A stretch of 52,215 nucleotides of DNA from Sedimentimonas flavescens. Its GTDB lineage: Bacteria > Pseudomonadota > Alphaproteobacteria > Rhodobacterales > Rhodobacteraceae. The stretch is taken from positions 1 through 52,215 of the forward strand of contig NZ_JAHVAI010000015.1 in the NCBI RefSeq assembly GCF_019264375.1. The letters run 5' to 3'. Positions 22,313-50,802 of the stretch are shown one piece after another; the stretch's first letter is position 1; the number at the start of each line of letters is the position of its first letter. Position numbers and translations under genes: made by a program. The notes under the pieces were generated by a model, which saw nothing but the letters and a program-made list of their open reading frames with translations, ran no database searches and had not been told where the DNA came from.

Positions 22313-23320
22313 ATGTCCATGATCGAGACCCCATATCTTCTGTTCCTGGGCGACGCGCCCGATCAACTGGCGGCCAAGGTCGCGCAGGGCATCAAGGACT
22401 GGCGCCCGGAATTCGCGCTTGGCCAGTATCGTATGGAGGGTTGCAAGGCCGATATGGGGCTGGCGGATATGAACCTTGCCACCGCCAAGGCCGCCGGGGC
22501 CAAGACGCTGGTGATCGGCGTGGCGAACCGGGGCGGCATCATCAGCCCGGAGTGGAAGAAGGTGCTGGTGCAGGCGCTGGAGGAGGGGTTCGATCTGGCC
22601 TCGGGGCTGCACAACCTGCTGCGCGACGAGCCCGACCTCGTGGCCGTTGCCGCCGCCTGCGGGCGTCAGTTGCATGACGTGCGCGTGCCCTCGGTCCAAT
22701 ATCCGATCGCCAACGGGATCAAGCGCACCGGCAAGCGGTGTTTGGCGGTGGGCACCGATTGCTCGGTCGGCAAGATGTATACCGCGCTTTGCATGGAGCG
22801 CGAGATGCGCGAGCGCGGCATGAAGGCAAGCTTCCGCGCGACGGGGCAGACCGGCATCCTGATCACCGGCGACGGCGTGCCGCTCGATGCGGTGATCGCG
22901 GATTTCATGGCGGGCTCGGTCGAGTATCTGACGCCGGACAATGACGCGGATCACTGGGATCTGATCGAGGGGCAGGGCAGTCTGTTCCACGTCTCGTACT
23001 CGGGGGTGACCATGGCGCTGATCCATGGCGGCCAGCCCGATGCGCTGATCCTGTGCCACGAGCCTACCCGCGTCCATATGCGCGGCCTGCCGGGCTACAA
23101 GCTGCCCTCGCTTGAGGCGGTGCGCGATACGGCGCTGGCTCTGGCGAAGGTTGCGAACCCCGCCTGTCAGGTGGTGGGCGTGTCGGTCAACACCCAGCAT
23201 ATGCCTGAGGCCGAGGCGCTGGCCTATCTGGCGCAGGTCGAGGCAGACATGGGCCTGCCCGCCACCGACCCCTTCCGCTTTGGCGCCGCCAAGCTGGTGG
23301 ACGCGCTGGACGCGATCTGA
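22313..23320 (+). CDS. dgcN: D-glutamate N-acetyltransferase DgcN (DUF1611)
   Basis: A 335-residue DUF1611 protein. The N-terminal domain (about 1-130, MSMIETPYLLFLGDAPDQLA at the start) is followed by a P-loop-like domain with GTDCSVGK at residues 147-154. Members beside an enolase-superfamily racemase are known as DgcN, which acetylates D-glutamate in marine Proteobacteria. The next gene here is exactly that racemase. The start has CGGAGAACGCC in front. The operon continues with dgcA and a D-amino-acid transaminase. Without the context DUF1611 alone would be only a weak hint. Confidence 0.85.
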   Translation: MSMIETPYLLFLGDAPDQLAAKVAQGIKDWRPEFALGQYRMEGCKADMGLADMNLATAKAAGAKTLVIGVANRGGIISPEWKKVLVQALEEGFDLASGLHNLLRDEPDLVAVAAACGRQLHDVRVPSVQYPIANGIKRTGKRCLAVGTDCSVGKMYTALCMEREMRERGMKASFRATGQTGILITGDGVPLDAVIADFMAGSVEYLTPDNDADHWDLIEGQGSLFHVSYSGVTMALIHGGQPDALILCHEPTRVHMRGLPGYKLPSLEAVRDTALALAKVANPACQVVGVSVNTQHMPEAEALAYLAQVEADMGLPATDPFRFGAAKLVDALDAI

Positions 23321-23341
23321 GAGGCTGTGCATGTGGCCGGG

Positions 23342-23380
23342 GGCGGATGCCTCCGGCGGAGGTATTTGAGCCAAGAAGAA
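23342..23380. repeat. GCCTCCGGCGGAGGTATTT intergenic repeat
   Basis: GCGGATGCCTCCGGCGGAGG followed by TATTTGAGCCAAGAAGAA fills most of the 70-base gap between dgcN and dgcA. It contains the palindrome CCTCC-GGC-GGAGG. I remember near-identical intergenic sequences as very abundant in Rhodobacteraceae genomes. In an operon gap it may act as an mRNA stabilising or processing element. It ends just before the purine-rich ribosome site of dgcA. Confidence 0.55.
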
Positions 23381-23390
23381 GGGGGCTGCG

Positions 23391-24353
23391 ATGATCTCCG
23401 TGACGGCTGATGTATTCCGGCTGGCCGAGGTGTTCACCATCTCGCGCGGGAGCCGGACCGAGGCCAAGGTGCTGACGGTGCGGGTGGCGCGCGGCGGTGC
23501 CGTGGGTCTGGGCGAATGCGTGCCCTATGCGCGCTATGGCGAGAGCCTGGAAAGCGTGGCGGCGCAGATCGAGGCGCTTCCCGCCGGGATCACGCGGGCC
23601 GAGTTGCAAGACGCGCTGGCGCCGGGGGCCGCGCGCAATGCGGTCGATTGCGCGCTGTGGGATCTGGAGGCGAAGCTTGCGGGCAAGCGGGTTTGGGAAC
23701 TGGCGGGGCTGCCCGCGCCGGGGCCGATGACCTGTGCCTATACGCTCTCGCTCGATGCGCCCGAGAAGATGCAGGCCGCGGCCGCGCGTCATGCGCATCG
23801 CCCGCTGTTGAAGATCAAGCTGGGCACGCCCGACGATATGGCGCGGCTGGAGGCGGTGCGGGCCGGGGCGCCGAAGGCGCGGATCATCGTCGACGCGAAT
23901 GAGGGATGGAGTGCCGAGGTCTATCAGGATCTGGCGCCGCATCTGGTCCGGCTGGGTGTCGCGCTGGTCGAGCAACCCTTGCCCGCCGCGGATGACGCGG
24001 CGCTGATCGGGATTGCGCGGCCCGTGCCGGTTTGCGCCGATGAGAGCTGTCATGACCGCGCGAGCCTGGGCCATCTGCGCGGCAAGTATGACATGGTGAA
24101 CATCAAGCTCGACAAGACCGGTGGGCTGACCGAGGCGCTGGCCCTGCGTGATCTGGCGCGGGCCGAGGGTTATCAGATCATGGTCGGCTGCATGGTGGGC
24201 TCGAGCCTTGCGATGGCGCCTGCGGTGCTGGTTGCGCAGGGCGCAGAGTATGTTGACCTTGACGGGCCGCTTTTGTTGGCCGAAGACCGTGCCAACCCCT
24301 TGGCCTATGCCGAGGGCAAGGTTTACCCGCCCGAGGCCGGGCTTTGGGGCTGA
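23391..24353 (+). CDS. dgcA: N-acetyl-D-glutamate racemase DgcA (enolase superfamily)
   Basis: A 320-residue enolase-superfamily enzyme of the muconate-lactonizing/dipeptide-epimerase subgroup. The catalytic K-x-K is Lys141-Lys143 in LLKIKLG, metal ligands are Asp168, Glu194 and Asp217, and the opposing base is Lys239 in NIKLDKTGG, so both-face proton transfer (racemization) is possible. Proteins like this used to be called L-Ala-D/L-Glu epimerase. Next to dgcN the likely reaction is N-acetyl-D-glutamate to N-acetyl-L-glutamate. The purine-rich AAGAAGGGGG precedes the ATG. The transaminase gene starts 14 bases after its stop. Confidence 0.87.
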   Translation: MISVTADVFRLAEVFTISRGSRTEAKVLTVRVARGGAVGLGECVPYARYGESLESVAAQIEALPAGITRAELQDALAPGAARNAVDCALWDLEAKLAGKRVWELAGLPAPGPMTCAYTLSLDAPEKMQAAAARHAHRPLLKIKLGTPDDMARLEAVRAGAPKARIIVDANEGWSAEVYQDLAPHLVRLGVALVEQPLPAADDAALIGIARPVPVCADESCHDRASLGHLRGKYDMVNIKLDKTGGLTEALALRDLARAEGYQIMVGCMVGSSLAMAPAVLVAQGAEYVDLDGPLLLAEDRANPLAYAEGKVYPPEAGLWG

Positions 24354-24367
24354 GCAAGGAGAGACGA

Positions 24368-25228
24368 ATGAGCCGGACTGTCTATCTCAATGGTCAATAT
24401 CTGCCGGAGGAAGAGGCCAGCGTCTCGATCTTCGACCGTGGTTTCGTGATGGGTGATGCCGTCTACGAGGTGACCTCGGTTCTGGGCGGCAAGATCCTGG
24501 AGTTCGATGGTCACGTCGCACGCCTCAACCGCTCGCTGGCCGAGCTTGAGATCGTCTGCGACATCAGCCGCGAGGAGTGGTTGGAGATCCACCGCGAGAT
24601 GATCAAGCGCAATGACCTCGACGAGGGCATGATCTACCTGCAGGTCAGCCGCGGCAATGCGGGCGATCGCGATTTCCACTACCCGCCCGAGGGCACTCCG
24701 CCGACTGTCGTGCTGTACACTCAGTCGAAGCCCGGTCTGGCCGATGACCCCAAGGTGCAAAAGGGGATCTCGGTGATTTCGGTTCCCGATCTGCGCTGGC
24801 ACCGCCGCGACATCAAGACCGTGCAGCTTCTCTACGCGTCGATGGTGAAGATGGCGGCCGAGAAGGCGGGCAAGCAGGACGCCTGGTTCGTTGAGGACGG
24901 TTTCGTCACCGAAGGTTCGTCGAACAACGTTTATATCGTCAAGGACGGCAAGATCATCACTCGCCAGCTGTCGAACGACATCCTGCACGGGATCACCCGC
25001 GCTTCGCTACTGAAATATGCCGCCGAAGCGCAGATGGAGATCGTCGAGCGCCCCTTCACCATCGCCGAGGCCCAAGCGGCCGACGAGGCGTTCTTCACCT
25101 CGGCTTCGGCCTTCGTGATGCCGGTGGTCGAGGTCGACGGCGTGGCGCTTGGTTCGGGCAAGCCCGGCCCGGTGTCGCTGCGCCTGCGCGAGATCTATCT
25201 GGACGAGAGCCTCAAGGCCGCGATCTGA
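24368..25228 (+). CDS. dat: D-amino-acid transaminase
   Basis: A 286-residue fold-IV PLP aminotransferase. The PLP lysine is Lys150 in RRDIKTVQLL, the phosphate loop is EGSSNNVYIV, and the start IFDRGFVMGDAVYE is the D-amino-acid transaminase pattern rather than the branched-chain one. It interconverts D-alanine (and others) plus 2-oxoglutarate with pyruvate plus D-glutamate. Start is ATG 24368 after AAGGAGAG; the frame is open to 24344. As third gene of the dgcN-dgcA operon it would collect D-amino groups as D-glutamate, the DgcN substrate. Confidence 0.9.
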   Translation: MSRTVYLNGQYLPEEEASVSIFDRGFVMGDAVYEVTSVLGGKILEFDGHVARLNRSLAELEIVCDISREEWLEIHREMIKRNDLDEGMIYLQVSRGNAGDRDFHYPPEGTPPTVVLYTQSKPGLADDPKVQKGISVISVPDLRWHRRDIKTVQLLYASMVKMAAEKAGKQDAWFVEDGFVTEGSSNNVYIVKDGKIITRQLSNDILHGITRASLLKYAAEAQMEIVERPFTIAEAQAADEAFFTSASAFVMPVVEVDGVALGSGKPGPVSLRLREIYLDESLKAAI

Positions 25229-25252
25229 TCGCAACAGCCTTCTGAAAATGAG

Positions 25253-25284
25253 AAAACCCCGGCCACAGCCCTGGCCGGGGTTTT
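25253..25284. terminator. Bidirectional terminator after the transaminase
   Basis: AAAACCCCGGCCA and TGGCCGGGGTTTT form a 13-bp perfect stem with a 6-base loop, flanked by A and T runs on both sides. It can stop the dgcN operon from the left and the oppositely oriented gene at 25301 from the right. Confidence 0.92.
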
Positions 25285-25300
25285 CCGTTGCCGGGCCGTC

Positions 25301-25921
25301 TTAGACGGCGCGCGGCGCGCGGAACTGGAAAAGATCCGGGGTCAGACTTGCTGCATCGGTGTTGTCGAGGATCAGGATGGCCTCGTCCTCAATCACCACA
25401 CGGGTGCGGCGGCGGCCTTGCACCTGCTCGAAGCGGATGCTTTCACGCCGCGGCGCGGGGCCGTCGAGTTCAAGCTCCAGCCGCTCGCCGGGCGCGAGAT
25501 CGTCGATGCGCGGCAGGTCGTCATCTGCGTCGCGTGTCGGGGCGAGGTCCTGCGCCGCGACCGTGGCGGCGGGGCGAGGGGCCTGTTCGGGCGCGTGCAG
25601 CATGGCTTCCAGCCGTTTCCACATTGCCTCGTCGGGGTTCTCTCTGGGCTCGGCGATGGGGGCGGGTTCGACCGTGAGCGGGTCGGGCTGTTCGATAAGA
25701 CGGGTGTTGCGGCGGGCCTGACGCTCGGCAAAACGCAGAGCTTCCAAGGGGGACGGTAATTCGTCCTTGGTTATAGTCGGCTTTTGCGGCGCCGGAGCAT
25801 CTTCCGGCGTCGGTGACGGGGAACGCCGGCGCAGCGGCGCGATCCCCAGGCGGGGGCATCCCAGCTCTGCCCAAAGGAGCAGCGTGAGTGCCACACTTAA
25901 TGCGAGAAATAACGCGAACAT
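25301..25921 (-). CDS. Hypothetical single-span membrane protein
   Basis: A 206-residue protein with one N-terminal membrane span (residues 2-19). An Arg patch and a Pro/Glu/Ala-rich, probably disordered middle (about 33-125) follow, then a C-terminal basic and acidic segment with RRRTRVVIEDEAILILDNTD. I do not recognise a named domain. GC content and codon use match the neighbours, and strong terminator and promoter gaps flank it, so it is likely a real family-specific gene of unknown role. Confidence 0.7.
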   Translation of the reverse strand: MFALFLALSVALTLLLWAELGCPRLGIAPLRRRSPSPTPEDAPAPQKPTITKDELPSPLEALRFAERQARRNTRLIEQPDPLTVEPAPIAEPRENPDEAMWKRLEAMLHAPEQAPRPAATVAAQDLAPTRDADDDLPRIDDLAPGERLELELDGPAPRRESIRFEQVQGRRRTRVVIEDEAILILDNTDAASLTPDLFQFRAPRAV

Positions 25922-26166
25922 GAGATAATCCTTACTCTATGCAAAAACGATGACGCTGGGGAGAACATGCGGCAAGGGATTTGTGGGTCCGCGCGCCCCG
26001 CATTGTTCGCGTCTGGCGCGCAATAGGTGCGAACCAAAAGGATTGGGCGAAAGGCGTGGAAGCGCACGCCAAAGGGTTGTAAAGAATTCGTTAATTTCAA
26101 CGGGCTACGGCGCCCGTCACGTCGTGTAAACGCTTCAAGGGCGAATCACCGCGATGGGCTGGGTGC
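25922..26166. other. Intergenic region, no gene seen
   Basis: These 245 bases lie upstream of the membrane-protein gene at 25301 and downstream of the N-formylglutamate amidohydrolase gene, both on the minus strand. No convincing frame, RNA or repeat is visible. The stretch must hold the promoter of the membrane-protein gene; AT-rich patches occur at 25922-25950 and 26078-26100. Confidence 0.5.
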
Positions 26167-26910
26167 CTAGAGCCCGCTGTCGCGCAGCACCTGATCGAGC
26201 ACCGGCGCCAGCCGGTCTGCCCAGGCGATCTGGCCGTCGGGCTGCGCGATCAGATCGTTGCGCAACTCGATCAGCACATTCGGGCGGCCCGGTGTCAGCG
26301 CATGCCGGTCGATGGAATCGCCATCGAGATGGCCCGAGTAGGGCTCGTTGTCGCCCACGCACAGGCCTTGCGCCGCGAGCGCCGCGATCAACGGCTTCGC
26401 CAGCCGCGCGTCGCGATGCGAATAGAGGATGCCGACCTGCCAGGGGCGCGGGGGGCGCCCGCGCAAACAGGGCGTGAAGGAATGCACCGCGCAGATCACC
26501 CGATCCGTCCGGGCACCCGCGATATCGGCCAGCGCGGCGTGGTAGGGGCGGTAAAGCCGCGCCAGGCGCTGCTCGATCTGCTCCGCGCAGGCGTTCCGGT
26601 TCGCCGGAATCACCGTGCCGTCGTAGAGGCGCATCACCAGCGTCGGGTCATCCTCGCCCCGGTTCGGGTCGATCACGAGGCGCGAGAAGTCGGTGGAAAT
26701 CATCGGCGCATCCAGCCCTTCGGCCAGCCGCTCGGCCAGCCCGAGCGCGCCGACGTCATAGGCAATATGGCGTGCCATGTCCTGCGCCGCGATCCCCAGA
26801 GAGTCGCCGCAGACCCAATCGGGAATGGTGTTGGTGGCATGGTCCACGGTCACCAGCCAGCGCGAGGGTCGCTCGGTGCCAGCGGTCCGGTAGGCGGGGT
26901 GGGGCGTCAT
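26167..26910 (-). CDS. N-formylglutamate amidohydrolase family protein
   Basis: A 247-residue member of the N-formylglutamate amidohydrolase family (HutG-like). Visible are VTVDHATNTIP, the STDFSRLVIDPNRGEDD segment with metal and substrate contacts, AVHSFTP, and the late DNEPYSG with VLIELRNDLI. It would hydrolyse N-formyl-L-glutamate or a similar N-acyl-glutamate to glutamate. The ATG at 26910 is chosen over an in-frame TTG at 26925 that lacks a ribosome site. It is divergent from pyk. No other histidine-degradation genes are here, so another N-acyl-glutamate substrate is possible. Confidence 0.87.
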   Translation of the reverse strand: MTPHPAYRTAGTERPSRWLVTVDHATNTIPDWVCGDSLGIAAQDMARHIAYDVGALGLAERLAEGLDAPMISTDFSRLVIDPNRGEDDPTLVMRLYDGTVIPANRNACAEQIEQRLARLYRPYHAALADIAGARTDRVICAVHSFTPCLRGRPPRPWQVGILYSHRDARLAKPLIAALAAQGLCVGDNEPYSGHLDGDSIDRHALTPGRPNVLIELRNDLIAQPDGQIAWADRLAPVLDQVLRDSGL

Positions 26911-26968
26911 ACTCTCGTCGTCCAAAATCGTCAGAGGAGAAATACGCGAGTTCTAGCGGGCAGGCCAG

Positions 26969-26997
26969 TTGCTCTGTGCGACATTTTGCGCCATAGC
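26969..26997 (+). promoter_or_regulatory. Candidate pyk promoter
   Basis: TTGCTC (26969-26974) and CATAGC (26992-26997) are separated by 17 bases, 48 bases before the pyk start, in a gap that must contain the pyk promoter. Predicted by eye only. Confidence 0.3.
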
Positions 26998-27044
26998 TGT
27001 GCCCGGCCCACGAAAAATTTTGTCAATATGAGGAACGAGGACGC

Positions 27045-28490
27045 ATGAGACGCCTTCGCAATGTCAAGATCGTGGCCACTCTGGGGCCGGCATCGTCGGA
27101 CTACACCACCATTCGCGCGCTGTTTGAGGCCGGAGCCGACGTGTTCCGCCTGAACATGAGCCACGGCACCCATGCCGAGCAGAAGGCGCGCTACGATATC
27201 ATTCGTCAGATCGAGGCCGATACCGGGCGTCCGATCGCCGTGCTGGCCGACCTTCAGGGCCCCAAGCTGCGCGTCGGCACCTTTGCCGCTGGCGCCGCCG
27301 ATCTGGAAGAGGGCGTGCCATTCCGTTTCGATCTCGACCCGACCGAGGGCGAGGGGCATCGTGTCTGCCTGCCGCACCCCGAGATCTTTGCCGCGCTTGA
27401 ACCCGGCGCCACGCTGTTGGTCAACGATGGCAAGATCCGCCTGCGGGTGGATGAATGCGGCCCCGATTTCGCCAATTGCACCGTGACGACGGGCGGTACG
27501 ATCTCGAACCGCAAGGGCGTGAACGTGCCTGACGTGGTGCTGCCGCTGGCCGCGCTGTCCGACAAGGACCGGGCCGATCTGGAGTTCGCCTGCGAGATGG
27601 GCGCCGACTGGCTGGCGCTGAGCTTCGTGCAGCGCCCCGAGGACGTGATCGAGGCGCGTGCGCTGGCGCGCGGCCGCGCAGCCATCCTGTCCAAGATCGA
27701 AAAGCCTGCCGCCGTGAAAGCCTTCGACGAGATCCTCAAGGTCTCGGATGGGATCATGGTGGCGCGTGGCGACCTGGGGGTGGAACTGCCGGTCCACGCC
27801 GTGCCGCCGATCCAGAAGCGCCTGATCCGCCGCTGCCGCGCGGCGGCAAAGCCCGTGATCGTCGCGACGCAGATGCTCGAGAGCATGATCGAAAGCCCGA
27901 TGCCGACCCGCGCCGAGGTCTCGGACGTCGCCACCGCGATCTATGAGGGCACCGACGCAATCATGCTGAGCGCGGAATCCGCCGCCGGTCGCTACCCGGT
28001 CGATGCGGTCGCCACCATGAACTCGGTCGCGCAATCGGTCGAGAACGACCCGACCTATCGCGAGGTGATCGAGGCCTCGCGCACCGTCGTTCGCCAGACC
28101 GTCGCCGACGGCATCGTGGCCGCCGCGCGCGAGATCGCCGAGGCCACCGATATCTCGGCCATCTGCTGCTACACCCAGTCGGGCAAGACCGTGTCGCTCA
28201 TCGCGCGCGAGCGCCCGCGCGTGCCGATCATCGCCATGTCGCCGGTGGTGCAGACCCTGCGCAAGATCTGCCTGTCCTGGGGCGTGCATGCCGTGCGCTG
28301 CGACGAGGTCGAGCGGTTCAAGATGGCGGTCGTCAACGCGGCCCGCGCGGCGCGCGATTTCGGCTTTGCCGACGAAACCAACCAGATCGTCGTCACCGCG
28401 GGCGTGCCCTTCAACGTGCAGGGCACGACGAACATCCTGCGCGTGGCGCCCTGCGACGAAAGATTGATCTTCCGCACCGATCCGGAGTAA
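27045..28490 (+). CDS. pyk: Pyruvate kinase
   Basis: A 481-residue pyruvate kinase, the last glycolytic step from phosphoenolpyruvate and ADP to pyruvate and ATP. It has the N-terminal KIVATLGPAS, FRLNMSHG, the catalytic-lysine segment ILSKIEKP, the Mg-binding VARGDLGVELP and MLESMI. The C-terminal allosteric domain is complete. GAGGACGC precedes the start. A 7-bp hairpin lies directly after the stop and a small membrane-protein gene follows at 31 bases. Confidence 0.97.
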   Translation: MRRLRNVKIVATLGPASSDYTTIRALFEAGADVFRLNMSHGTHAEQKARYDIIRQIEADTGRPIAVLADLQGPKLRVGTFAAGAADLEEGVPFRFDLDPTEGEGHRVCLPHPEIFAALEPGATLLVNDGKIRLRVDECGPDFANCTVTTGGTISNRKGVNVPDVVLPLAALSDKDRADLEFACEMGADWLALSFVQRPEDVIEARALARGRAAILSKIEKPAAVKAFDEILKVSDGIMVARGDLGVELPVHAVPPIQKRLIRRCRAAAKPVIVATQMLESMIESPMPTRAEVSDVATAIYEGTDAIMLSAESAAGRYPVDAVATMNSVAQSVENDPTYREVIEASRTVVRQTVADGIVAAAREIAEATDISAICCYTQSGKTVSLIARERPRVPIIAMSPVVQTLRKICLSWGVHAVRCDEVERFKMAVVNAARAARDFGFADETNQIVVTAGVPFNVQGTTNILRVAPCDERLIFRTDPE

Positions 28491-28508
28491 GCTTACCTAG
28501 GGGTAAGC
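28491..28508. other. Hairpin directly after the pyk stop
   Basis: GCTTACC-TAGG-GGTAAGC is a 7-bp perfect hairpin that begins at the base after the pyk TAA. There is no T-tract. It sits just before the ribosome site of the next small gene, so it may act as a partial terminator or translation modulator. Confidence 0.45.
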
Positions 28509-28520
28509 GAGGGCTCGGCC

Positions 28521-28748
28521 ATGATTGACATGGATACGTTGCTCGCCCTTGGGGTGGTTATTTTTCTGCTGTCCATTCCCTCGGGCGTCTCGGCATTTGC
28601 CAACAGCCGCCCTCCACATGCCGCAATTCTGGCGGTGGTCGTGGGGGGGGGATTGTTGATCTACGCGGCGATGATGAAACCCGGCGGCTACACGATGGGC
28701 GAGGTCCCGGATGTGGTGCTGTCGGTGATCGGGCGCATCCTGCTGTAG
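28521..28748 (+). CDS. Small two-span membrane protein
   Basis: A 75-residue protein with two hydrophobic segments (about residues 6-25 and 35-52) and the motif SIPSGVSAFANSRPPHAAIL between them. GAGGG lies 9 bases before the ATG. I do not recognise a named family. Placement between pyk and rpmI and ordinary GC-rich codon use make it a likely real gene, probably co-transcribed with pyk. Confidence 0.75.
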   Translation: MIDMDTLLALGVVIFLLSIPSGVSAFANSRPPHAAILAVVVGGGLLIYAAMMKPGGYTMGEVPDVVLSVIGRILL

Positions 28749-28874
28749 ATTTGTGCGCATACCCCCTTGCCAAACAGGGAGGGCGGCTATATCAGGCGCC
28801 CTCTATGAGCCCGCGCGGCCGGCCGGAGTGGCATGCCGAGTCGCGTGAATACACACTCGAAAGAGGAGATGGAA

Positions 28875-29075
28875 ATGCCCAAGATGAAGACGAAATCAGC
28901 TGCCAAGAAGCGGTTCAAGTTTACCGCGACCGGCAAGGTTATCGCAGGTCCGGCCGGCAAGCGCCATGGCATGATCAAGCGCACCACCAAGTTCATCCGC
29001 GACAGCGCGGGCACGATGATCCTGTCCGATGCGGACGCAAAGATCGTCAAGAAATACATGCCCTACAACCGCTGA
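28875..29075 (+). CDS. rpmI: 50S ribosomal protein L35
   Basis: A 66-residue protein, [20 protein letters not shown] at the start, with [10 protein letters not shown] and YMPYNR at the end. All are hallmarks of L35. Start ATG 28875 follows GAGGAG; the frame is open to 28833 only by chance. It forms the usual rpmI-rplT pair. infC, often upstream in other bacteria, is not here. Confidence 0.97.
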
Positions 29076-29090
29076 ACTGGAGGCTGATCA

Positions 29091-29456
29091 ATGTCCCGCG
29101 TTAAATCCGGCAAGGTTACCCACGCCTCGCACAAGAAAGTTCTGAAGGCTGCCAAGGGCTACTACTCGGCCCGCTCGCGCAACTTCCGCACCGCCACCCA
29201 GGCCGTCGACAAGGCCAACCAGTACGCGACCCGCGACCGCAAGGCCCGCAAGCGCAGCTTCCGCGCGCTGTGGATCCAGCGGATCAACGCTGCTGTCCGC
29301 GCCTTCGACGCCGAAATGACCTATTCGCGCTTCATCAACGGCCTCGCGCTGGCTGGCATCGAAGTGGACCGCAAGGTTCTCGCCGATCTCGCCATCCACG
29401 AGCCGGAAGCGTTTGGCGCCATCGTCGAAAAGGCGAAGGCTGCCGCGGCTGCGTAA
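29091..29456 (+). CDS. rplT: 50S ribosomal protein L20
   Basis: A 121-residue protein with the L20 pattern: [20 protein letters not shown], the [12 protein letters not shown] segment, and [10 protein letters not shown]. It binds 23S rRNA early in assembly. It starts 15 bases after rpmI with TGGAGG. A strong terminator follows, so pheS has a separate promoter. Confidence 0.97.
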
Positions 29457-29484
29457 TCTCCCCATCTGAGGGATTGCACTTTGA

Positions 29485-29519
29485 ACCCCGCGCCGGCGCT
29501 TTGCCGTCGCGGGGTTTTT
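29485..29519 (+). terminator. rpmI-rplT terminator
   Basis: ACCCCGCG and CGCGGGGT form the base of a long hairpin whose inner part also pairs (CGGCG with CGTCG), followed by TTTTT. Confidence 0.88.
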
Positions 29520-29530
29520 CTTTCATACGC

Positions 29531-29559
29531 TTGAAATCGGGCCGGGCCGGGGCTAGCAC
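29531..29559 (+). promoter_or_regulatory. Candidate pheS promoter
   Basis: TTGAAA (29531-29536), a 17-base spacer, then TAGCAC (29554-29559), 27 bases before the pheS ATG and just after the rplT terminator. No phenylalanine-rich leader peptide or attenuator hairpin is seen in the gap. Confidence 0.5.
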
Positions 29560-29585
29560 TCCCCCGACCAGACAGGAGAGACCAG

Positions 29586-41578: not shown

Positions 41579-41580
41579 AC

Positions 41581-41600: not shown

Positions 41601-41697
41601 ACCTCACCATGCCGTGTAGGGCGCGACAATCGCGCGCATCCTCCTTGGCCCGGACGCGTTCGGTCTCTATGATCGCGTCCGCGAACAGGAGGACACC

Positions 41698-43656: not shown

Positions 43657-43659
43657 GCC

Positions 43660-44121
43660 ATGCTCAAACGTCTTGCCCTTTGCCTTTTGCTGGCCAGCCC
43701 CGCATTCGCGGTTCAGCCCGACGAGGTGCTGCCCGATCCCGCGATGGAGGCCCGCGCGCGTCAGATCAGCCAGGTGCTGCGCTGCCCGGTCTGCCAGGGC
43801 GAGAATATCGACGAGTCGAACGCCGAGGTCTCGCGCGATCTGCGCCTGCTGGTGCGCGAACGTCTGGTCGCGGGCGATACTGACAGCCAGGTGCTGGACT
43901 ACATCACCGACCGCTACGGCGAATATGTCCTGTTCGAGCCGGAAAAGACCGGCGCGAACCTGATCCTTTATTACCTCGGGCCGGTCGCGCTGCTGATCGC
44001 GATGGGCGGCGCCTTCGTCTACCTGCGCGGTCGCCGCCGCGAGGATGGCCCCGGCACCGGCCTTTCGGCTGAGGAAGAGGCACGCCTGAAAGAGCTGATG
44101 AAGGACGAGCCCGGCAAGTGA
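43660..44121 (+). CDS. ccmH: Cytochrome c-type biogenesis protein CcmH
   Basis: A 153-residue membrane-anchored thiol oxidoreductase. The signal peptide ends near residue 17. The redox motif LRCPVCQG has Cys42 and Cys45, in the usual NIDESNAEVSRDLR context, and one C-terminal span (about 105-125) anchors it. It reduces the CxxCH of apocytochrome c for heme attachment by CcmF. This is the short form of CcmH; the TPR-containing CcmI part is not fused or adjacent. Three bases after ccmF, so co-transcribed. Confidence 0.95.
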   Translation: MLKRLALCLLLASPAFAVQPDEVLPDPAMEARARQISQVLRCPVCQGENIDESNAEVSRDLRLLVRERLVAGDTDSQVLDYITDRYGEYVLFEPEKTGANLILYYLGPVALLIAMGGAFVYLRGRRREDGPGTGLSAEEEARLKELMKDEPGK

Positions 44122-44187
44122 CGCAGTGTTCCGCTTCCCCCGCCGTATCGCGCCGCTAATGTGGCGCAAAGGCGAGGGAGGACACGC

Positions 44188-44964
44188 ATGAACTACGAGG
44201 CAATCCGATATGAGCTGACCGAAGGCATGGCGGTGATCACGCTCAACCGCCCCGAGGTCATGAATGCCCTCAACAGCGCGATGCGCGCCGAGATCCTCGA
44301 CGCGCTGCGCCGCGCCGCAGCCGAGGCGCGGGTCGTTGTGTTGACCGGTGAGGGGCGGGCCTTCTGTTCCGGGCAGGATCTGGCGGACAGGGCGGCCTCG
44401 GGCGCGTTCGATCTGCAAAAGGTGCTGCGCGAGGAATACGAGCCGATGCTGATGGCGATCTACGATTGCCCGCTGCCGGTGATTTCGGCGGTGAATGGCG
44501 CGGCGGCAGGGGCAGGGGCGAACCTTGCGCTGGCGGCGGATGTGGTGATCGCCACGCAATCGGCGGCTTTCCTGCAGGCCTTCACGCGGATCGGCCTGAT
44601 GCCCGATGCGGGCGGCACCTACTGGCTGCCGCGTCAGGTGGGCTTTGCGCGGGCCATGGGGGCGGCGCTGTTTGCCGACAAGGTCACGGCGGATCAGGCC
44701 GCGCAATGGGGCATGATCTGGGAATCGGTGCCCGACGCCGAGTTCGCTGCACATTGGCGCGCGCGGGCCGCGCATCTGGCCAAGGGGCCGACCGCCGCCT
44801 ATGGCGCGATCAAGCGCGCTCTGCGCGAGGGCTATGGAAATGACCTGCCCGCGCAGCTTTCGCTTGAGGCCGAGTTGCAGGGCCAACTGGGCCGGAGCCG
44901 CGATTTCCACGAGGGCGTCACCGCCTTCCTGCAAAAACGCGCCCCGGTCTTCGACGGCCGCTGA
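44188..44964 (+). CDS. Enoyl-CoA hydratase/isomerase family protein (PaaG-like)
   Basis: A 258-residue crotonase-fold protein. VITLNRPEVMNALNSAM, RAFCSGQDL and GAAAGAGANLALAADVVIA (oxyanion hole) are present. The acidic residue in GLMPDAGGTYWLPR suggests an isomerase-type PaaG (2-(1,2-epoxy-1,2-dihydrophenyl)acetyl-CoA isomerase) rather than a plain hydratase, but no other phenylacetate genes are near. ATG 44188 has GGGAGGA in front. Substrate uncertain. Confidence 0.87.
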   Translation: MNYEAIRYELTEGMAVITLNRPEVMNALNSAMRAEILDALRRAAAEARVVVLTGEGRAFCSGQDLADRAASGAFDLQKVLREEYEPMLMAIYDCPLPVISAVNGAAAGAGANLALAADVVIATQSAAFLQAFTRIGLMPDAGGTYWLPRQVGFARAMGAALFADKVTADQAAQWGMIWESVPDAEFAAHWRARAAHLAKGPTAAYGAIKRALREGYGNDLPAQLSLEAELQGQLGRSRDFHEGVTAFLQKRAPVFDGR

Positions 44965-44970
44965 CGGGGC

Positions 44971-44999
44971 TTGCCCCCGTCATTGCCGCGGGTTAGCCA
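44971..44999 (+). promoter_or_regulatory. Candidate tRNA-Leu promoter
   Basis: TTGCCC (44971-44976), a 17-base spacer and TAGCCA (44994-44999), 8 bases before the mature tRNA start. Predicted by eye. Confidence 0.45.
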
Positions 45000-45007
45000 G
45001 AACCCGT

Positions 45008-45093
45008 GCGGGCGTGGCGAAATGGTAGACGCATGGGATTTAAACTCCCTTGGGCGCAAGCCCGTGCCGGTTCGAGTCCGGCCGCCCGCACCA
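45008..45093 (+). tRNA. tRNA-Leu (UAA)
   Basis: A class II tRNA of 86 bases including an encoded CCA. The acceptor stem GCGGGCG pairs with CGCCCGC (45083-45089). The anticodon loop TTTAAAC gives anticodon UAA (leucine). The long variable arm TGGGC-GCAA-GCCCG is diagnostic of tRNA-Leu. The T arm is GCCGG-TTCGAGT-CCGGC. The first anticodon-stem pair is a T:T mismatch. The 3' end lies 7 bases from the end of the convergent GNAT gene. Confidence 0.95.
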
Positions 45094-45100
45094 TCACCGC

Positions 45101-45814
45101 TTAGCGTGATCCAAGCAGATAGCTCGCCGTTGCGCGGTCAAAGCCAAGGATGGCCTGTCCGGCAGCGAAGGCGGGCTGGAGCACGCCCCGCAGCCGCAGC
45201 CGCCCAGCCAGAGCCGCCTGCGGATCGGCTGCCATCAAGGCGTCGATGTCACTCGGGATCGCCACGGGTTCAAGATTGGCGGGCAGGGCGAGGGCCCGGC
45301 CTTCGGCGCGCGCCACGACCTCGGGCGCGTCAAGCTGCCAATACGCCATGATGCGATCCGAGGGCAGGCCCGCATTGATGCCCGGCATCGCCCCGTAATA
45401 ATCGACAAAATACTCCGACGCGGTGGCCCCGAGCACGCCGATATTCAGCCCGGCATTGATCGCGCGCAGCGGATCGTAGGTCCAGCGCACCCGGGTGATA
45501 CCGCGCGCAAGGCACCAGTCGCGCTGGAACCACTTCATTCGCGCACCAAGCCCCAGCCCGCGCGCTTCAGGCGAAACCGCCAGCCGGTGCGAGTGCTGCA
45601 AGCCCGCCGTCACCGTCGGAAAGCCGAACAGGAAGGCAAGCATCCGATCGCCCGCGAAGGCGCCCGCCAGCAGCGCGCCCTCGTGCTGCAGAGACAGCAT
45701 GATGTCCGAATTGTCGGGGCGCTCGCCCTCGCCCCAGACCTCGACCTGAAAACGCTCGGCCCGGGCCAGTTCATCCAGCCCGTTCAACTCGCGCAGCGTG
45801 ACTTCGGCGTTCAT
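45101..45814 (-). CDS. GNAT-superfamily N-acyltransferase (COG3375 type)
   Basis: A 237-residue predicted acyltransferase. The acetyl-CoA pyrophosphate loop is in [19 protein letters not shown] (Q/RxxGxG/A-like), followed by [19 protein letters not shown], a feature of the COG3375 group. In Geobacillus and others a GNAT enzyme beside N-succinylamino-acid racemase acylates D-amino acids with succinyl-CoA. Here it is the last gene of the transporter-racemase operon and its start overlaps the racemase stop (ATGA), with GAGGAG in front. The likely role is N-acylation of imported D-amino acids. Acyl donor unproven. Confidence 0.82.
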
Positions 45815-46938
45815 GCGCGGAACTCCTCGGTCATCCGGGTGACGGTTTCGAGGAAGGGGCGGTCGAGCGTTACGCCGACGCCCGGCCCGTTGCCCGGCAC
45901 CGGCATCAGGCCATCCGCGGCCTCAAGCGGTTCGTTGATGATATCGCGGTGGAAATAGCGGCTGGCCGAGGAGGTATCGCCCGGCTTGGTGAAGTTCGGC
46001 AGCGTCGCGAGGTGGATGTTATGCGCGCGCCCGATGCCGCTTTCCAGCATTCCGCCGCACCAGACCGGCGCCCCGAACGCCTCCGAGACATCGTGGATCG
46101 CCCGCGCCGCCGCATAGCCGCCAACCCGCCCGACCTTGATGTTGATGACGCGTGCCGCGCCCGCCGCCAGCGCCTTGCGGCAATCGGCGGGGGTGCGGAT
46201 CGACTCGTCAAGGCACAGCGCGGTGGCGATCTCGCGCTGCACCAACGCATGGTCGTGAATGTCATCTACGGCCAGCGGCTGTTCGATGTAATCGAGGTTG
46301 AAGGCATCCATCGCGCGCAGCGTGGCCAGATCGGCCAGCCCGTAAGCGGTATTGGCATCGACGGTCAGCTTGACGTCGGGATAGGCGCGCCGCACCGCTT
46401 CGAGCAGCGCCAGATCATGCCCCTGCGCGACCTTGAGCTTGATGCGCTTGTAGCCCGCCTCGACGGCCTCGGCTACGCGCGCAACCGTGGTGTCGATCGC
46501 GGTGATGCCAAGCGAAACGCCCACCGGCACCGCATCGCGCACGCCCCCAAGAGCCGCCTTCAGCGGCAGGCCGAGTGCCTTGGTCCACAGATCCCAGAAG
46601 GCCATTTCGACCAAGGCCTTGCTCATGCGGTGGCCGCGCCAGGGCGCCAGCAGGGCTGCCAGTTCGGCCGGGTTGCCAAAGCGCTTGCCGACGATCTGCG
46701 GCAAGATCAGGTCGCGCAGAAACCCGAGCGCGCCGGGAATAGTTTCCTCGAGATAGTCGGGGAAGGGGTCCATCACCCCCTCGCTGAACCCCTCGACGCC
46801 CTCGCCGCGCAGGATCAGCACGGGGAAGGTCTTGTCGGTCAGCGTCTGGTTCGAGACCTTGAAGGGCGTCACCAGCGGCAGGTTGACAATGCGCAGCTCG
46901 GCGGACTCGATCTTGAGCCCGGTAAACGGAACGGTCAT
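45811..46938 (-). CDS. N-acylamino-acid racemase (NSAR/OSBS branch of the enolase superfamily)
   Basis: A 375-residue enzyme. The subgroup motif [20 protein letters not shown] precedes the catalytic K-x-K in YKRIKLKVA. Metal ligands lie in [15 protein letters not shown] and CLDESIRT, and the second base Lys is in [11 protein letters not shown]. The sequence pattern fits the o-succinylbenzoate synthase/N-succinylamino-acid racemase family. A menaquinone role is unlikely in a ubiquinone-using relative, and the adjacent GNAT gene supports racemization of N-acyl-amino acids. ATG 46938 is used; an in-frame TTG at 46950 overlaps the ATPase stop and could be the true start. Confidence 0.85.
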
Positions 46939-46946
46939 TTGGGTTC

Positions 46947-47714
46947 TCAACGGATTTTGGAAATGAAACGGGCGAAGACTTCGCTCTCGGGGTTGTTGAA
47001 CAGCTTTTCGGGCGGGCCCTGTTCGGCCACGAGGCCCTGATGGAGGAACACCACCTCGGTCGAAACCTCGCGCGCGAAGGCCATCTCATGCGTGACGACG
47101 ATCATCGTGCGCCCTTCGGCGGCCAGATCCTGCATCACCTTGAGCACCTCGCCCACCAGTTCCGGGTCGAGCGCCGAGGTCGGTTCGTCGAACAGGATCG
47201 CGTCGGGTTCCATCGCCAGCGCCCGGGCAATCGCCACACGCTGTTGCTGCCCGCCCGAGAGTTGCGAGGGGTAGTGGTGCATCCGCTCGGCAAGGCCGAC
47301 GCGCGCCAGAAGCGCCTCGGCCTGATCGCGCGCCTCGGCCTTGGGCTTGTGCTTAACCTGCACCGGCCCCTCCATCACGTTTTCCAGAACGGTGCGGTGG
47401 GTCCAGAGGTTGAACTGCTGGAACACCATGCCAAGGTGCTGGCGCATCCGCTCGATCTGGCGCTGATCGCCGATGCGGCCGTTGCGGAAGGCGATCGTCT
47501 CGCCATGCACCGCGACGCTGCCAGAGCTGGGGATCTCAAGAAAGTTCAGGCAGCGCAGGAAGGTCGATTTACCCGAGCCGGAGGCGCCGAGGATCGAGAT
47601 CACATCATGGTTGCGCGCTTGCAGGGAGATGCCCTTGAGCACCTCGTGCGTGCCGAAGCTCTTGCGGATGTCCTGGGCGTGAAGGACCAGGTCTTGCGGG
47701 GTTTGAGGCTGCAT
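46947..47714 (-). CDS. Polar amino-acid ABC transporter ATP-binding protein
   Basis: A 255-residue ATPase of the HisP/GlnQ class. Walker A is GASGSGKST, the Q-loop is in [11 protein letters not shown], the signature LSGGQQQR, and Walker [14 protein letters not shown] followed by [19 protein letters not shown] is typical of the histidine/lysine/arginine/ornithine group. Start is ATG 47714 with AAGGAA. It lies between the permease and racemase genes in the operon. Confidence 0.94.
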
Positions 47715-47725
47715 TGTCAGGTTCC

Positions 47726-48424
47726 TTACGCGCGGCCCGGGGCCGCCATGTGGCGCGACATGCGGCGCTCGGCGAAGCGCCACAGATAGACGAAGCAGGC
47801 GGTGATGATCAGGTAGAGCACCGCGGCCTGGAAATAGACGGAGAACTCGAAGCTGCGCGAGAAGATCTGCCGGGTGCGGCCCATCAGGTCGAACACGGTC
47901 ACGATCGAGGCGAGCGCGGAGGCTTTCATCAGCAAGATGATCTCATTGCCAAGCGCGGGCCAGGCGATGCGATAGGCATGGGGGAAAACCACCCGGCGCA
48001 GGATCGTGGGGCGCGACATGCCCACGGCACGCGCGGCCTCGATCTCGCCCACGGCAACGGCCTGAATGCCGCCGCGCAGGATCTCGGTCTGATAGGCGCA
48101 GGAGTTCACCGCGAATACCAGAACGGCGCAGTTGAACGGGTCGCGGAAAAAGCCCCACAGACCAAGCGCCGTCAGTTCGGCGCGGAACTGGCCCGAGCCG
48201 TAGAAGACAAGGAACAGTTGCGCCAGCAGCGGGGTGCCGCGCACGAAAGAGATATAGGCCCGCAGCGCAAGTTGAGCGGGGAGCGGCCCGTTGGCGCGCA
48301 GCAATGCCAACCCCGGCGAGGCCGCGGCCGCGATGGCCGCCCCCAAGCCGGTCAGCGCAAGCGTGGTCACCGTGCCGTCGAGCAGCTTGGGCAGGTTGGC
48401 GGCCAGTGTGTCGAAGAATGCCAT
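47726..48424 (-). CDS. Amino-acid ABC transporter permease (HisQ/HisM family), second
   Basis: A 232-residue inner-membrane permease with about five spans and the EAA-type loop EIEAARAVGMSRPTILRRVV that docks the ATPase. Two adjacent ATGs occur; 48424 is best placed after GGAGGG, while 48427 overlaps the upstream permease stop (ATGA). It forms a heterodimer with the other permease. Confidence 0.93.
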   Translation of the reverse strand: MAFFDTLAANLPKLLDGTVTTLALTGLGAAIAAAASPGLALLRANGPLPAQLALRAYISFVRGTPLLAQLFLVFYGSGQFRAELTALGLWGFFRDPFNCAVLVFAVNSCAYQTEILRGGIQAVAVGEIEAARAVGMSRPTILRRVVFPHAYRIAWPALGNEIILLMKASALASIVTVFDLMGRTRQIFSRSFEFSVYFQAAVLYLIITACFVYLWRFAERRMSRHMAAPGRA

Positions 48425-49131
48425 CATGCCCTCCGCAGGCCACGGTTGGCGCGCCGCTCAAGCTGCGCCAGAACCAGTTCGGACAGAAGGCACATCAGCC
48501 AGTAGATCAGGCAGGCCACGAGGTAGAAGGTGAAGGGTTGCTTGGTCACGCCCACGGCCACCTTGGTCGCGCGCATCAGATCATCAAGCGCGATCACCGA
48601 CACCAGCGCCGTGTCCTTGAGCAGGTTGAGCCACAGGTTCCCCATCCCGGGCAGCGCGTAGCGCCACAAAAGCGGCAACTTGATGCGCCAGAAGATCTTG
48701 CGCGCCGACATGCCGATGGCGCGGCCTGCCAGGATCTGCCCCTCTGGCACGGCCTGGAAAGCGCCGCGCAGAACCTCGGCCGCGAAGGCCCCGAAGACCA
48801 GCGCGAGCGCGATCACCCCGGCTGCGAAGGGCGGGAAGTCGATCGGCCCGGCATCGGGCGCAATCCAGGCCATCATCCGGTTCAGCCCAAGCCCAAGACC
48901 GTTATAGACGATGAACAAGGTCAGGATCTCGGGCAGGCCGCGCATCAGCGTGGTATAGCCCACGCCGATCGCGCGCAGCGCCGGGATCTGCGACAGCGAC
49001 AGCGCCGCCACCGCAAACCCCAACAGTAACCCCACGGGCAGGGTGGTCAGCGCAAGGCGCATCGTCACCCAAAGCCCCGCAAGAATTTCGTCGCCCCAGC
49101 CGAGGGGGCCGTAGGAGAACAACTCCATCAT
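48424..49131 (-). CDS. Amino-acid ABC transporter permease (HisQ/HisM family), first
   Basis: A 235-residue permease with about five spans and the EAA loop around GQILAGRAIGMSARKIFWRI. Start codons GTG ATG ATG occur in a row; ATG 49131 is given, but GTG 49134 is equally spaced from GAGAGG. It is 28 bases after the binding-protein gene and coupled to the second permease. Confidence 0.93.
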   Translation of the reverse strand: MMELFSYGPLGWGDEILAGLWVTMRLALTTLPVGLLLGFAVAALSLSQIPALRAIGVGYTTLMRGLPEILTLFIVYNGLGLGLNRMMAWIAPDAGPIDFPPFAAGVIALALVFGAFAAEVLRGAFQAVPEGQILAGRAIGMSARKIFWRIKLPLLWRYALPGMGNLWLNLLKDTALVSVIALDDLMRATKVAVGVTKQPFTFYLVACLIYWLMCLLSELVLAQLERRANRGLRRA

Positions 49132-49159
49132 CACATGCCGCCTCTCGCCGGGAGCCCGA

Positions 49160-49939
49160 TTACTTCATCGTGTAGATGTCGATGGTGAAGTACTTGTCGT
49201 TGATCGCCTGATAGGTGCCGTCAGCGCGGATTTCCTCAAGCGCCTTGTTCAGACGCTCGCGCAGGTCGTTGTCTTCCTGACGCAGCGCGATGCCCACGCC
49301 CTCGCCGACAAAGGCCGGGTCGGTGATCGGCTCGCCCGCCAGCTTGCAGCAGGCGCCGTCCTCGGTCTTCTCGACGAAATCGAGCAGCGGCAGCATGTCG
49401 CCCACCATCACGTCAAGCCGGCCCGAGGCCATGTCGAGGCTGGCCTCGTCCTGCGTCGGGTAAAGGCGCACGTCCGCATCGGGATACATCTGCACGGCAT
49501 AGTCGGCCTGCGTCGTGCCCGCCTGCGCGCCCACGACCATATCCTTGAGCGCGTCATTGGTGAATTCGGTGATCTCCGATTCCTTCGGCACGACATGGGT
49601 CATTGCCGCCATGTAATAGGGTTCGGTGAAGGCCACCTGCTGCTTCCGTTCTTCGGTAATGAACATCGAGGCGATGATGAAGTCGTACTTGTTGGCCAGC
49701 AGACCCGGAATGATACCGTCCCAGTCCTGCGCGACCACTTCGCATTCGGCGCCGATGCGCTTGCACAGCTCCAGCCCGACCTCGACGTCGAAGCCTTCGA
49801 CCTTGCCGTCGGGCGTGACGTAGTTGAAGGGCGGGTAGGCGCCCTCGGTGCCAAGGCGCAGCGTTTCGGCGTGAACGCCGCCTGCCAGCGTGGCGAAGGC
49901 GAGCGAGCAGGCAAGAAGTTTGGTAGCGATCGTCATCAT
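49160..49939 (-). CDS. Amino-acid ABC transporter periplasmic binding protein
   Basis: A 259-residue family-3 solute-binding protein. The signal peptide (residues 1-23) ends VHA. The mature part starts ETLRLGTEGAYPPFNYVTPD and has the conserved GFDVEVGLELCKRIG and IIASMFITEERKQQVAFTEPYY. The lysine/arginine/ornithine/histidine-binding group is the closest by eye, but the ligand is not certain. The operon's racemase and acyltransferase raise the possibility of D- or N-acyl-amino-acid uptake. Start 49939 has AGGGAAAC in front. Confidence 0.92.
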   Translation of the reverse strand: MMTIATKLLACSLAFATLAGGVHAETLRLGTEGAYPPFNYVTPDGKVEGFDVEVGLELCKRIGAECEVVAQDWDGIIPGLLANKYDFIIASMFITEERKQQVAFTEPYYMAAMTHVVPKESEITEFTNDALKDMVVGAQAGTTQADYAVQMYPDADVRLYPTQDEASLDMASGRLDVMVGDMLPLLDFVEKTEDGACCKLAGEPITDPAFVGEGVGIALRQEDNDLRERLNKALEEIRADGTYQAINDKYFTIDIYTMK

Positions 49940-49971
49940 GTTTCCCTGTTGTTGGAGGCTGTTTTGATTGG

Positions 49972-50802
49972 TTATTGGGCGACCGGTGTCAGCGGGTTGC
50001 CGACATGGCCTGTGAACGCGCCGTAAAGCCGCGCGATTTCGTTGAGCCGGGCTTCGGCCCCTTCGCCGCGTGCGAGGAAGATGTCGTTGATCAGCAGGTT
50101 GCCAAGCAGCGCCAGATGCGCGGTCGAATCCCAGAACTGGTTGAACTGGGTCGCCACCATGAAGACCTCGTCGGCGTAATCCGCGCCCCAGGCGCAGTAG
50201 CGGTCGGTGAAGATCGTGACTGCGATGCCGCGCGCCTTGGCCTCGCGCGCCAGAACCAGCGCCTGGCGCGAATAGCGGCGGGCCTCGAAAATGGCGAGGC
50301 AGGTGTCCTGCGGCGCGGCGCCCTCGACCAGCACCTCGGCGAAGTTCCCCGCCGACAGATCCACAAGCTGCACACCGGGGCGCACATATTGCATCTGGCT
50401 GGCGAAGTATTGCGCCAGCCCGCGCTCGGTCTGAAAGCCCGTCACAAGCACGCGCGCGCGCTTGGTGAACCGCTCGACCGCCGCTTGCCATTCGGGGGTG
50501 CGCGCGAGTTCGTAAACGCCGACCAACCCGGCCATCTCGGCCTCAAGCCCTTGCGACAGGCGCTCGTCGCGCTGCCCGGAGGTGCTGCGCAGCGCCTGAA
50601 GGCGGTCCTTGATCAACCAGGGCTGCTCGCCGATGTCGTCTTTCAGGTGATCCTTGAGGTCCTTGAAGTTGGCATAGCCGATCGCCCGGCAGAACCGCCC
50701 GATGCTGACCTCGCTCACCTCGATCTTGGTGGCGAGGGTTGCCGCCGTCTCGAACGGCAGGTCCGAGAATTGCGCGAGCATGAAGCTGGCAATCGCCCGC
50801 AT
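49972..50802 (-). CDS. RpiR/MurR-family transcriptional regulator with unclear start
   Basis: From ATG 50802 this is 276 residues: the HTH (SFMLAQFSDLPFETAATLAT, then VSEVSIGRFCRAIGYANFKD) followed by a SIS sugar-isomerase-like domain (about 120-255). The HTH domain is cut short by this start. The same frame upstream continues family-like (LTPPAHQPLRARLVQAAETG) back to a stop near 50895, with no ATG, GTG or TTG. A CTG at 50871, 8 bases after GGAG, would add 23 residues and restore a normal length of 299. It heads the transporter-racemase operon and likely controls it. Confidence 0.88.
   Translation of the reverse strand: MRAIASFMLAQFSDLPFETAATLATKIEVSEVSIGRFCRAIGYANFKDLKDHLKDDIGEQPWLIKDRLQALRSTSGQRDERLSQGLEAEMAGLVGVYELARTPEWQAAVERFTKRARVLVTGFQTERGLAQYFASQMQYVRPGVQLVDLSAGNFAEVLVEGAAPQDTCLAIFEARRYSRQALVLAREAKARGIAVTIFTDRYCAWGADYADEVFMVATQFNQFWDSTAHLALLGNLLINDIFLARGEGAEARLNEIARLYGAFTGHVGNPLTPVAQ

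Follow-up and report, generated by a model that had tools for sequence, protein, structure and literature searches.

Gene content of the two loci

This report deals with a 52,215-nucleotide stretch of the Sedimentimonas flavescens genome (the window) and with two gene clusters in it, both of which combine an acyltransferase gene with a gene for a racemase of the enolase superfamily. The window is the whole of contig C7 of an assembly of 3.38 Mb in 62 contigs. Locus 1 consists of dgcN, dgcA and the D-amino-acid transaminase gene dat. Locus 2 comprises seven genes, all on the minus strand, which encode an RpiR regulator, a substrate-binding protein (SBP), two permeases and an ATPase of an ABC transporter, an enzyme of the N-succinylamino acid racemase/o-succinylbenzoate synthase (NSAR/OSBS) family and a GNAT acyltransferase (Table 1). 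A preliminary description of this DNA had seen here two independent acylate-then-racemise gene sets, and this part of it was borne out: all the genes it named are in place as judged by curated-family and Pfam matches, the acyltransferases (DUF1611 and GNAT) are unrelated, belonging to separate Pfam families, the racemases fit different family models, and both sets recur as units in other genomes (see below). DgcA and NSAR are the only two MR_MLE_C proteins above cut-off in the genome.

Table 1. Features of locus 1, locus 2 and the border of locus 2 in the window.
Feature	Position	Strand	Evidence
dgcN, D-glutamate N-acetyltransferase (DUF1611 family)	22313..23320	+	NF041892, 564.2 bits (cut-off 480); PF07755 and PF17396; PDB 7xrj, 598 bits
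dgcA, N-acetyl-D-glutamate racemase (enolase superfamily)	23391..24353	+	NF042940, 511.7 bits (cut-off 400); best PDB relatives 4gfi and 1jpd
dat, D-amino-acid transaminase (class IV)	24368..25228	+	subfamily NF005209, 367 bits (cut-off 320)
tRNA-Leu(TAA), border of locus 2	45008..45093	+	ARAGORN; blastn match to L171 ends at 45093
GNAT acyltransferase, putative succinyl-CoA:D-amino acid N-succinyltransferase	45101..45814	-	PF00583, 24.7 bits (cut-off 20.7)
N-succinylamino acid racemase (NSAR/OSBS family)	45811..46938	-	TIGR01928, 299.2 bits (cut-off 200.65)
ABC transporter ATPase, HisP-like, start inferred	46947..47714	-	NF007908, 350 bits (under the 466 cut-off)
ABC transporter permease, ArtM/HisM-like but below cut-offs	47726..48427	-	PF00528
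ABC transporter permease, ArtQ/HisQ-like but below cut-offs	48424..49134	-	PF00528
Periplasmic binding protein of the cationic amino acid type; Phe where LAO has Ser72	49160..49939	-	PF00497
MurR/RpiR-family regulator (HTH_6 and SIS)	49972..50802	-	PF01418, PF01380

The best relative of the locus 2 racemase in the PDB is 1r0m, an N-acylamino acid racemase (461 bits). Its residues K167/K169, D194, E219, D244 and K268 align with 1r0m and are invariant across six homologues; we take them to be the catalytic set, consisting of the KxK motif, three acidic metal ligands and the second lysine. R271, three residues past the second lysine, is also invariant in the six homologues, and corresponds to the arginine (R266 of Amycolatopsis) that presumably marks NSAR as opposed to OSBS enzymes. 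The NSAR stop codon overlaps the GNAT start codon. For the SBP and the ATPase of locus 2 the start codons were inferred; here, as at the overlap, the codons themselves were checked. The GNAT protein had no match in NCBIfam at E <= 0.001. Its AlphaFold model (pLDDT 95.9) has RimI and phosphinothricin acetyltransferases as Foldseek neighbours, with query-normalised TM-scores of about 0.5 and approximately 150-190 of the 237 residues covered, which speaks for the GNAT fold only. RimI and phosphinothricin acetyltransferases acylate alpha-amino groups.

The NSAR-GNAT module in other genomes

NSAR loci were collected by an alignment scan of an 84,980-species collection, and the best 80 of 187 confirmed stretches (1.36 Mb in total, each reaching at most 9 kb to either side) were analysed. 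In 79 of these the GNAT gene lies directly downstream of the NSAR gene on the same strand, the aligned parts being not more than 60 bases apart; L131 is the exception. NSAR-GNAT is thus one module. It is of a known kind. An RpiR homologue was found at 38 of the 80 loci. The upstream context, as classified by script, was a window-type amino-acid transporter in 25 loci, an SBP with an M81 metallopeptidase in 10, a nearby Dpp peptide transporter in 18 and something else in 27. In the sample of 149 Rhodobacteraceae genomes used for base rates, which includes the source genome, the GNAT was detected in six and NSAR above cut-off in seven; all six GNAT genomes have NSAR alongside, and the seventh NSAR genome (G127) encodes an NSAR of 35% identity and has no GNAT match.

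The module also occurs on plasmids. The window-type operon is plasmid-borne in Sulfitobacter indolifex and S. mediterraneus; the S. mediterraneus plasmid is typed as conjugative and has a tyrosine recombinase gene just upstream of the operon. The NSAR-GNAT pair was found on plasmids of Deinococcus, Streptomyces and Stenotrophomonas as well, in several cases with D-aminoacylase, serine hydrolase, amidohydrolase, dipeptidase or M20 genes nearby. Among the plasmid records 64 have NSAR at E <= 1e-40 and 45 have GNAT, so the two cannot occur together in all; no GNAT neighbour is annotated beside the NSAR of the Pseudochrobactrum plasmid.

It is instructive to compare locus 2 with two systems of this kind. 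The Deinococcus radiodurans locus on plasmid MP1 resembles it in having an SBP and a GNAT (41% identical) alongside an NSAR that is 57% identical, but the order is NSAR-SBP-GNAT, no permease is annotated in the stretch, and the SBP is 28% identical, its residue at the Ser72 site (discussed below) being Ala. The Geobacillus pathway reportedly consists of NSAR, a GNAT N-succinyltransferase and an L-desuccinylase. The window shares with it the NSAR-family racemase adjoining a GNAT, whereas its operon lacks the hydrolase and has an amino-acid transporter and RpiR; a DapE-type hydrolase is found in some relatives.

Three observations on these loci are recorded here. An M81/MlrC-type metallopeptidase, often with a Dpp peptide transporter, is found near NSAR-GNAT in 23 of the 80 loci (L075, L076, L078, L079, L081-L084, L087, L088, L105, L107, L109, L113, L115, L119, L122, L123, L126, L127, L129, L130 and L132), which suggests import of peptides containing D-residues. 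At L095, L096, L098, L099, L100, L103, L104, L106 and L108 (mostly Marivita) a histone-deacetylase-fold gene (PF00850; for example L104:3618-4640) directly follows GNAT on the opposite strand, and some of these loci also have a class III aminotransferase. L068, a record titled Nocardioides marinus, has an NSAR that hardly differs from the one in Leisingera daeponensis, and the assembly is possibly misnamed.

Linkage to arginase and ornithine cyclodeaminase

Homologues of arginase and ornithine cyclodeaminase (OCD) lie beside NSAR-GNAT in 5 of the 80 loci (L053, L054, L059, L092 and L094), in three different arrangements. In L053 and L092 arginase scored 281 and 292 bits (cut-off 227.6), OCD 575 and 586 bits (cut-off 350). 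On the assumption of one arginase-OCD pair per genome of about 4.3 Mb, itself an estimate, some 0.3 pairs would be expected by length in the 80 stretches. The 17 stretches collected for locus 1 (195 kb) contain no such pair, but they are too little sequence for a strong control. On the NSAR tree L053 is the sister of the window (support 100/98) and L054 falls within the same four-row clade; the arginase-OCD label requires three changes. The source genome itself carries a homologous pair on contig C12, with 76% and 84% identity to the pair of L053. It seems to share an operon with a transporter that is a paralogue of the locus 2 transporter (ATPase 60.6%, SBP 43% identity).

The binding protein

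The best PDB relatives of the locus 2 SBP are the arginine-binding protein 3tql and HisJ, followed by the lysine/arginine/ornithine-binding protein (LAO) and NocT. According to excerpts of two papers (PMC4192606, PMC5740067), the side chain and carboxylate of arginine are held in NocT and OccJ by Glu, Tyr, Trp and Arg, Ser72 and Asp161 bind the alpha-amino group in LAO, and OccJ-S91G loses binding of arginine, lysine and ornithine. By alignment, the window SBP (residue numbers refer to the translation of window:49163-49948, minus strand) resembles OccJ and NocT in keeping Glu35, Tyr38, Trp76 and Arg101, and has Asp184 at the Asp161 site. It differs from LAO in having Phe96 where Ser72 anchors the L-alpha-amino group, so that only one residue of the Ser72-Asp161 pair is retained.

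Among SBPs linked to NSAR, the Ser72 site holds Phe in 27 distinct window-type proteins, the window included, and Ala in 10 proteins of the SBP/M81 type; on plasmids it is Phe in two Sulfitobacter copies and Ala in two Deinococcus copies. Ser is found in HisJ, in an unlinked SBP on a Deinococcus plasmid and in the SBPs of contigs C12, C60, C1 and C23 (the last poorly aligned) of the source genome, Asn in 3tql and Thr in AncQR; a seventh SBP of the source genome was unalignable. The change at Ser72 fits recognition of another geometry at the alpha-carbon and would not by itself prove a D-ligand. A family-3 binding protein gene of the source genome (G000:C60:137232-137903) contains one in-frame TAG.

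The probable acyl group and candidate desuccinylases

In 6 of the 80 loci (L064, L065, L067, L086, L113 and L115) a DapE-type gene lies beside NSAR-GNAT or a few genes from it, and the linked proteins of L064 and L113 are above the DapE equivalog cut-off. DapE is the succinyl-desuccinylase of lysine biosynthesis. Five of the genomes with a linked copy were searched (L115 is not among them): four hold two DapE proteins above cut-off, and that of L086 has one intact DapE, its linked copy being in two pieces, each below cut-off. A search of six genomes that lack a linked copy, the source genome among them, gave exactly one DapE in each. On the NSAR tree the linkage label changes four times, two of these changes being forced. 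We infer N-succinyl chemistry because in the relatives a second DapE is linked to NSAR-GNAT; a spare DapE kept beside the racemase is the best evidence for N-succinyl intermediates. The broken gene of L086 (L086:3889-4871) belongs to Ruegeria sp. ANG-R.

The reading of locus 2 as a full route was not supported: the operon lacks a desuccinylase, and another part of the genome would need to supply the hydrolase. The source genome has eight M20 matches, one of which is a DapE above cut-off (contig C2); this protein and the other M20 proteins are candidates for the desuccinylase of the strain.

Locus 1 and its distribution

In the DgcN-DgcA route D-glutamate is N-acetylated, then racemised to N-acetyl-L-glutamate, which enters L-glutamate/arginine metabolism. 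Locus 1 is this known route, ordinary and common in the family: both window proteins exceed the curated equivalog cut-offs, dgcA adjoins dgcN, and there is no essential difference from the described pathway. With the L-Ala-D/L-Glu epimerase model NF011708 DgcA reached 318.7 bits, under the cut-off of 343. PDB 7xrj, a close structural relative of DgcN, was deposited under another name. The D-amino-acid transaminase alongside is a difference from the pathway as described, and is found in the relatives examined as well; it could pass amino groups from further D-amino acids on into D-glutamate. With the equivalog model TIGR01121 it scored 237.5 bits, under the cut-off of 277.45.

DgcN is present in 116 of the 149 family genomes (above cut-off in 113). 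The dgc region was compared in 17 relatives' stretches; an 18th (L043) was broken off at a contig end. The three genes dgcN, dgcA and dat occur together in all 17, with dat 3' of dgcA within about 1.4 kb in 16 (in L159 it lies at the opposite side of dgcN), mcl in 13 and pyk in 10. An N-formylglutamate amidohydrolase gene (PF05013; window 26167-26925, minus strand) lies just past dgcN-dgcA-dat near pyk, as in 10 of the 17 stretches; its product could act on N-acyl-L-glutamate. At G191:C77:33022-33900, in the genome of L123 (Cypionkella), a DgcN match is interrupted by two in-frame stops and represents a decayed copy.

Relation of the two loci

The preliminary description paired the two systems, and proposed a survey of their co-occurrence in related genomes. 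DgcN and GNAT are both present in 2 of the 6 GNAT genomes of the family sample, the source genome (G000) and G114. Of the NSAR-bearing genomes 49 were searched for DgcN, which was above cut-off in 21: in 15 of the 20 genomes tested that have the window-type operon (20 of the 25 loci of this type were covered) and in 6 of the remaining 29, many of which come from lineages without a measured base rate. The figure of 15 of 20 is about the family rate, and independence predicts as much. Mutual avoidance of DgcN and NSAR-GNAT, first suspected from the 2 of 6, was not upheld for the window-type operons. Within the 80 NSAR stretches neither DgcN nor DgcA had a match.

A genome of the same genus (G046) has DgcN, lacks the GNAT and has no NSAR above cut-off. 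Its dgcN lies at C57:151.7 kb, in the gene order accA-mcl-dgcN-dgcA-dat-FGase-pyk as in the window, and a ccmH-enoyl-CoA hydratase-tRNA-Leu stretch with 77% DNA identity to the window is found at C57:176.1-177.5 kb; the spacing between the two is about equal to that in the window, as compared at both ends. The DNA match stops exactly at the end of the tRNA-Leu gene, beyond which G046 has different genes. In the window the GNAT stop codon (45101) is 7 bases from the end of tRNA-Leu (45093). A directly repeated end of tRNA-Leu (its final 14-20 bases), a possible mark of insertion, was not found in the window. Because the match with G046 ends at tRNA-Leu and locus 2 is missing there, locus 2 was most likely inserted beside this tRNA gene, which would account for the short distance to locus 1; loss of locus 2 in G046 is a possible alternative. 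The closeness of the two loci looks incidental.

Farther on, the stretch 51205-51270 (minus strand) resembles by eye the 3' part of a tRNA-Cys gene, which ARAGORN did not call, and may be what is left of an integration site. The GC content is lower across the last 4 kb of the window.

Discussion

We consider it reasonably probable that locus 2 is a separate operon, probably horizontally acquired, through which a cationic D-amino acid is used by way of N-succinylation, racemisation and desuccinylation; the likeliest substrate would be D-arginine, with D-ornithine and D-lysine as further possibilities. The gene families, their adjacency, the aligned catalytic and pocket residues and the genes linked in relatives are observed; the direction of the reactions, the acyl group, the substrate, the identity of the hydrolase in this strain and all activities are deduced from them. 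The ABC transporter would import the cationic D-amino acid, the GNAT would N-succinylate its alpha-amino group, and NSAR would convert the N-succinyl-D to the N-succinyl-L form. Succinate would then be removed by an M20 hydrolase, of the DapE type or another, whose gene lies elsewhere, and the arginase and OCD of contig C12 would degrade the L-form, while RpiR may sense the substrate or a metabolite. Locus 2 would in this respect be an apparent and unusual specialisation of the NSAR-GNAT kind towards cationic D-amino acids. The earlier suggestion that its substrates come from peptidoglycan debris is not supported, given the arginase-OCD linkage in the nearest relatives and an SBP closest to arginine-, histidine- and LAO-type proteins.

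Several points weigh against this interpretation. The linkages to arginase-OCD and to DapE are post hoc, as they were noticed after 31 gene clusters had been inspected, and do not amount to a formal test; the three changes of the arginase-OCD label on the tree may also be one gain and two losses. The SBP scores 231.7 bits with the LAO subfamily model TIGR01096, under its cut-off of 256.35. Phe96 is not proof of D-selectivity, because the SBP of contig C17, probably of the ectoine type, also has Phe there; what the residue indicates, as far as an alignment can tell, is a lost anchor for the L-amino group. A search of Pfam and NCBIfam for an L-N-succinyl-amino-acid hydrolase in or beside the operon (45.1-50.8 kb) gave none, and succinyl-CoA is only the presumed acyl donor of the GNAT. 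Finally, some NSAR relatives are without GNAT (L131, G127 and the Pseudochrobactrum plasmids, where none is annotated adjacent), and other NSAR-GNAT groups are associated with M81 metallopeptidases and peptide transporters, which means that the module in general is not specific to arginine.

A rival reading is that the operon serves broad D-amino-acid salvage, like the classical NSAR-GNAT systems, without preferring any one substrate, and that the arginase-OCD links are accidental. The Dpp-type transporters and M81 genes point to peptides, and the hydrolase genes beside the Deinococcus and Streptomyces pairs (D-aminoacylase, serine hydrolase, dipeptidase or M20) agree with such a role. For the window we regard broad salvage as rather unlikely: the nearest relatives of the window-type SBP are arginine-, histidine- and LAO-binding proteins, the transporter has a paralogue in the arginase-OCD operon of the same genome, and the two nearest relatives of the window on the tree carry arginase-OCD.

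We have also considered that the operon imports an opine or another N-substituted arginine, the lost Ser72 making room for the substituent. The SBP is like NocT and OccJ in its Glu, Tyr, Trp and Arg, NocT has no Ser at this site either (Gly97, in the excerpts cited above), and nopaline use classically has arginase and OCD among its downstream genes. Phe96, however, would fill the space which NocT opens with Gly, and the Asp161 equivalent is kept (Asp184 by alignment), unlike the Ser207 given for NocT in the same excerpts. No opine oxidase gene was recognised in the window operon, and NSAR acts on N-acyl amino acids and is not known to act on N-carboxyalkyl ones. Together these points make an opine substrate quite improbable.

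That both loci form one D-amino-acid programme selected for proximity is largely refuted and in our view very improbable: they do lie within 28 kb of each other, but their co-occurrence is about the base rate, they are unlinked in the 80 loci, locus 2 is missing beside the same tRNA-Leu in G046, and the operon is plasmid-borne elsewhere. We reject a functional pairing of the two on these base rates and on synteny. Scarcely credible is the identification of the racemase as o-succinylbenzoate synthase, as implied by the NCBI name menC: TIGR01928 is above cut-off and annotated plasmid relatives are called menC, but the best MenD match in the genome has 58.5 bits against a cut-off of 244.2 (the search covered MenD alone among men genes), the annotation of the 11 plasmid stretches inspected shows no further men gene, and the operon holds a transporter and a GNAT.

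Returning to the cationic D-amino acid operon, we put forward, with chances slightly under even, the wider proposal that alphaproteobacteria have a complete route for D-arginine (or D-ornithine), in which an SBP that has given up the L-amino anchor (Ser72 changed to Phe or Ala) in favour of the D-form serves uptake, N-succinylation, racemisation and desuccinylation by a DapE paralogue of lysine-biosynthetic origin follow, arginase and OCD complete the degradation, and the operon is disseminated on plasmids and next to a tRNA gene. Among titles and abstracts of the open-licence literature we recognised no paper on N-succinyl racemisation of D-arginine; subscription titles lie mostly outside this literature, and the absence of such a paper is not proven. 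If true, the proposal would provide a D-arginine route that does not need D-amino acid dehydrogenases, and a substrate for a racemase that databases name menC. Position 72 of LAO would be a one-residue marker that could help to separate D- from L-amino-acid importers. The two loci would also illustrate how "parallel" pathways can become neighbours through a chance insertion.

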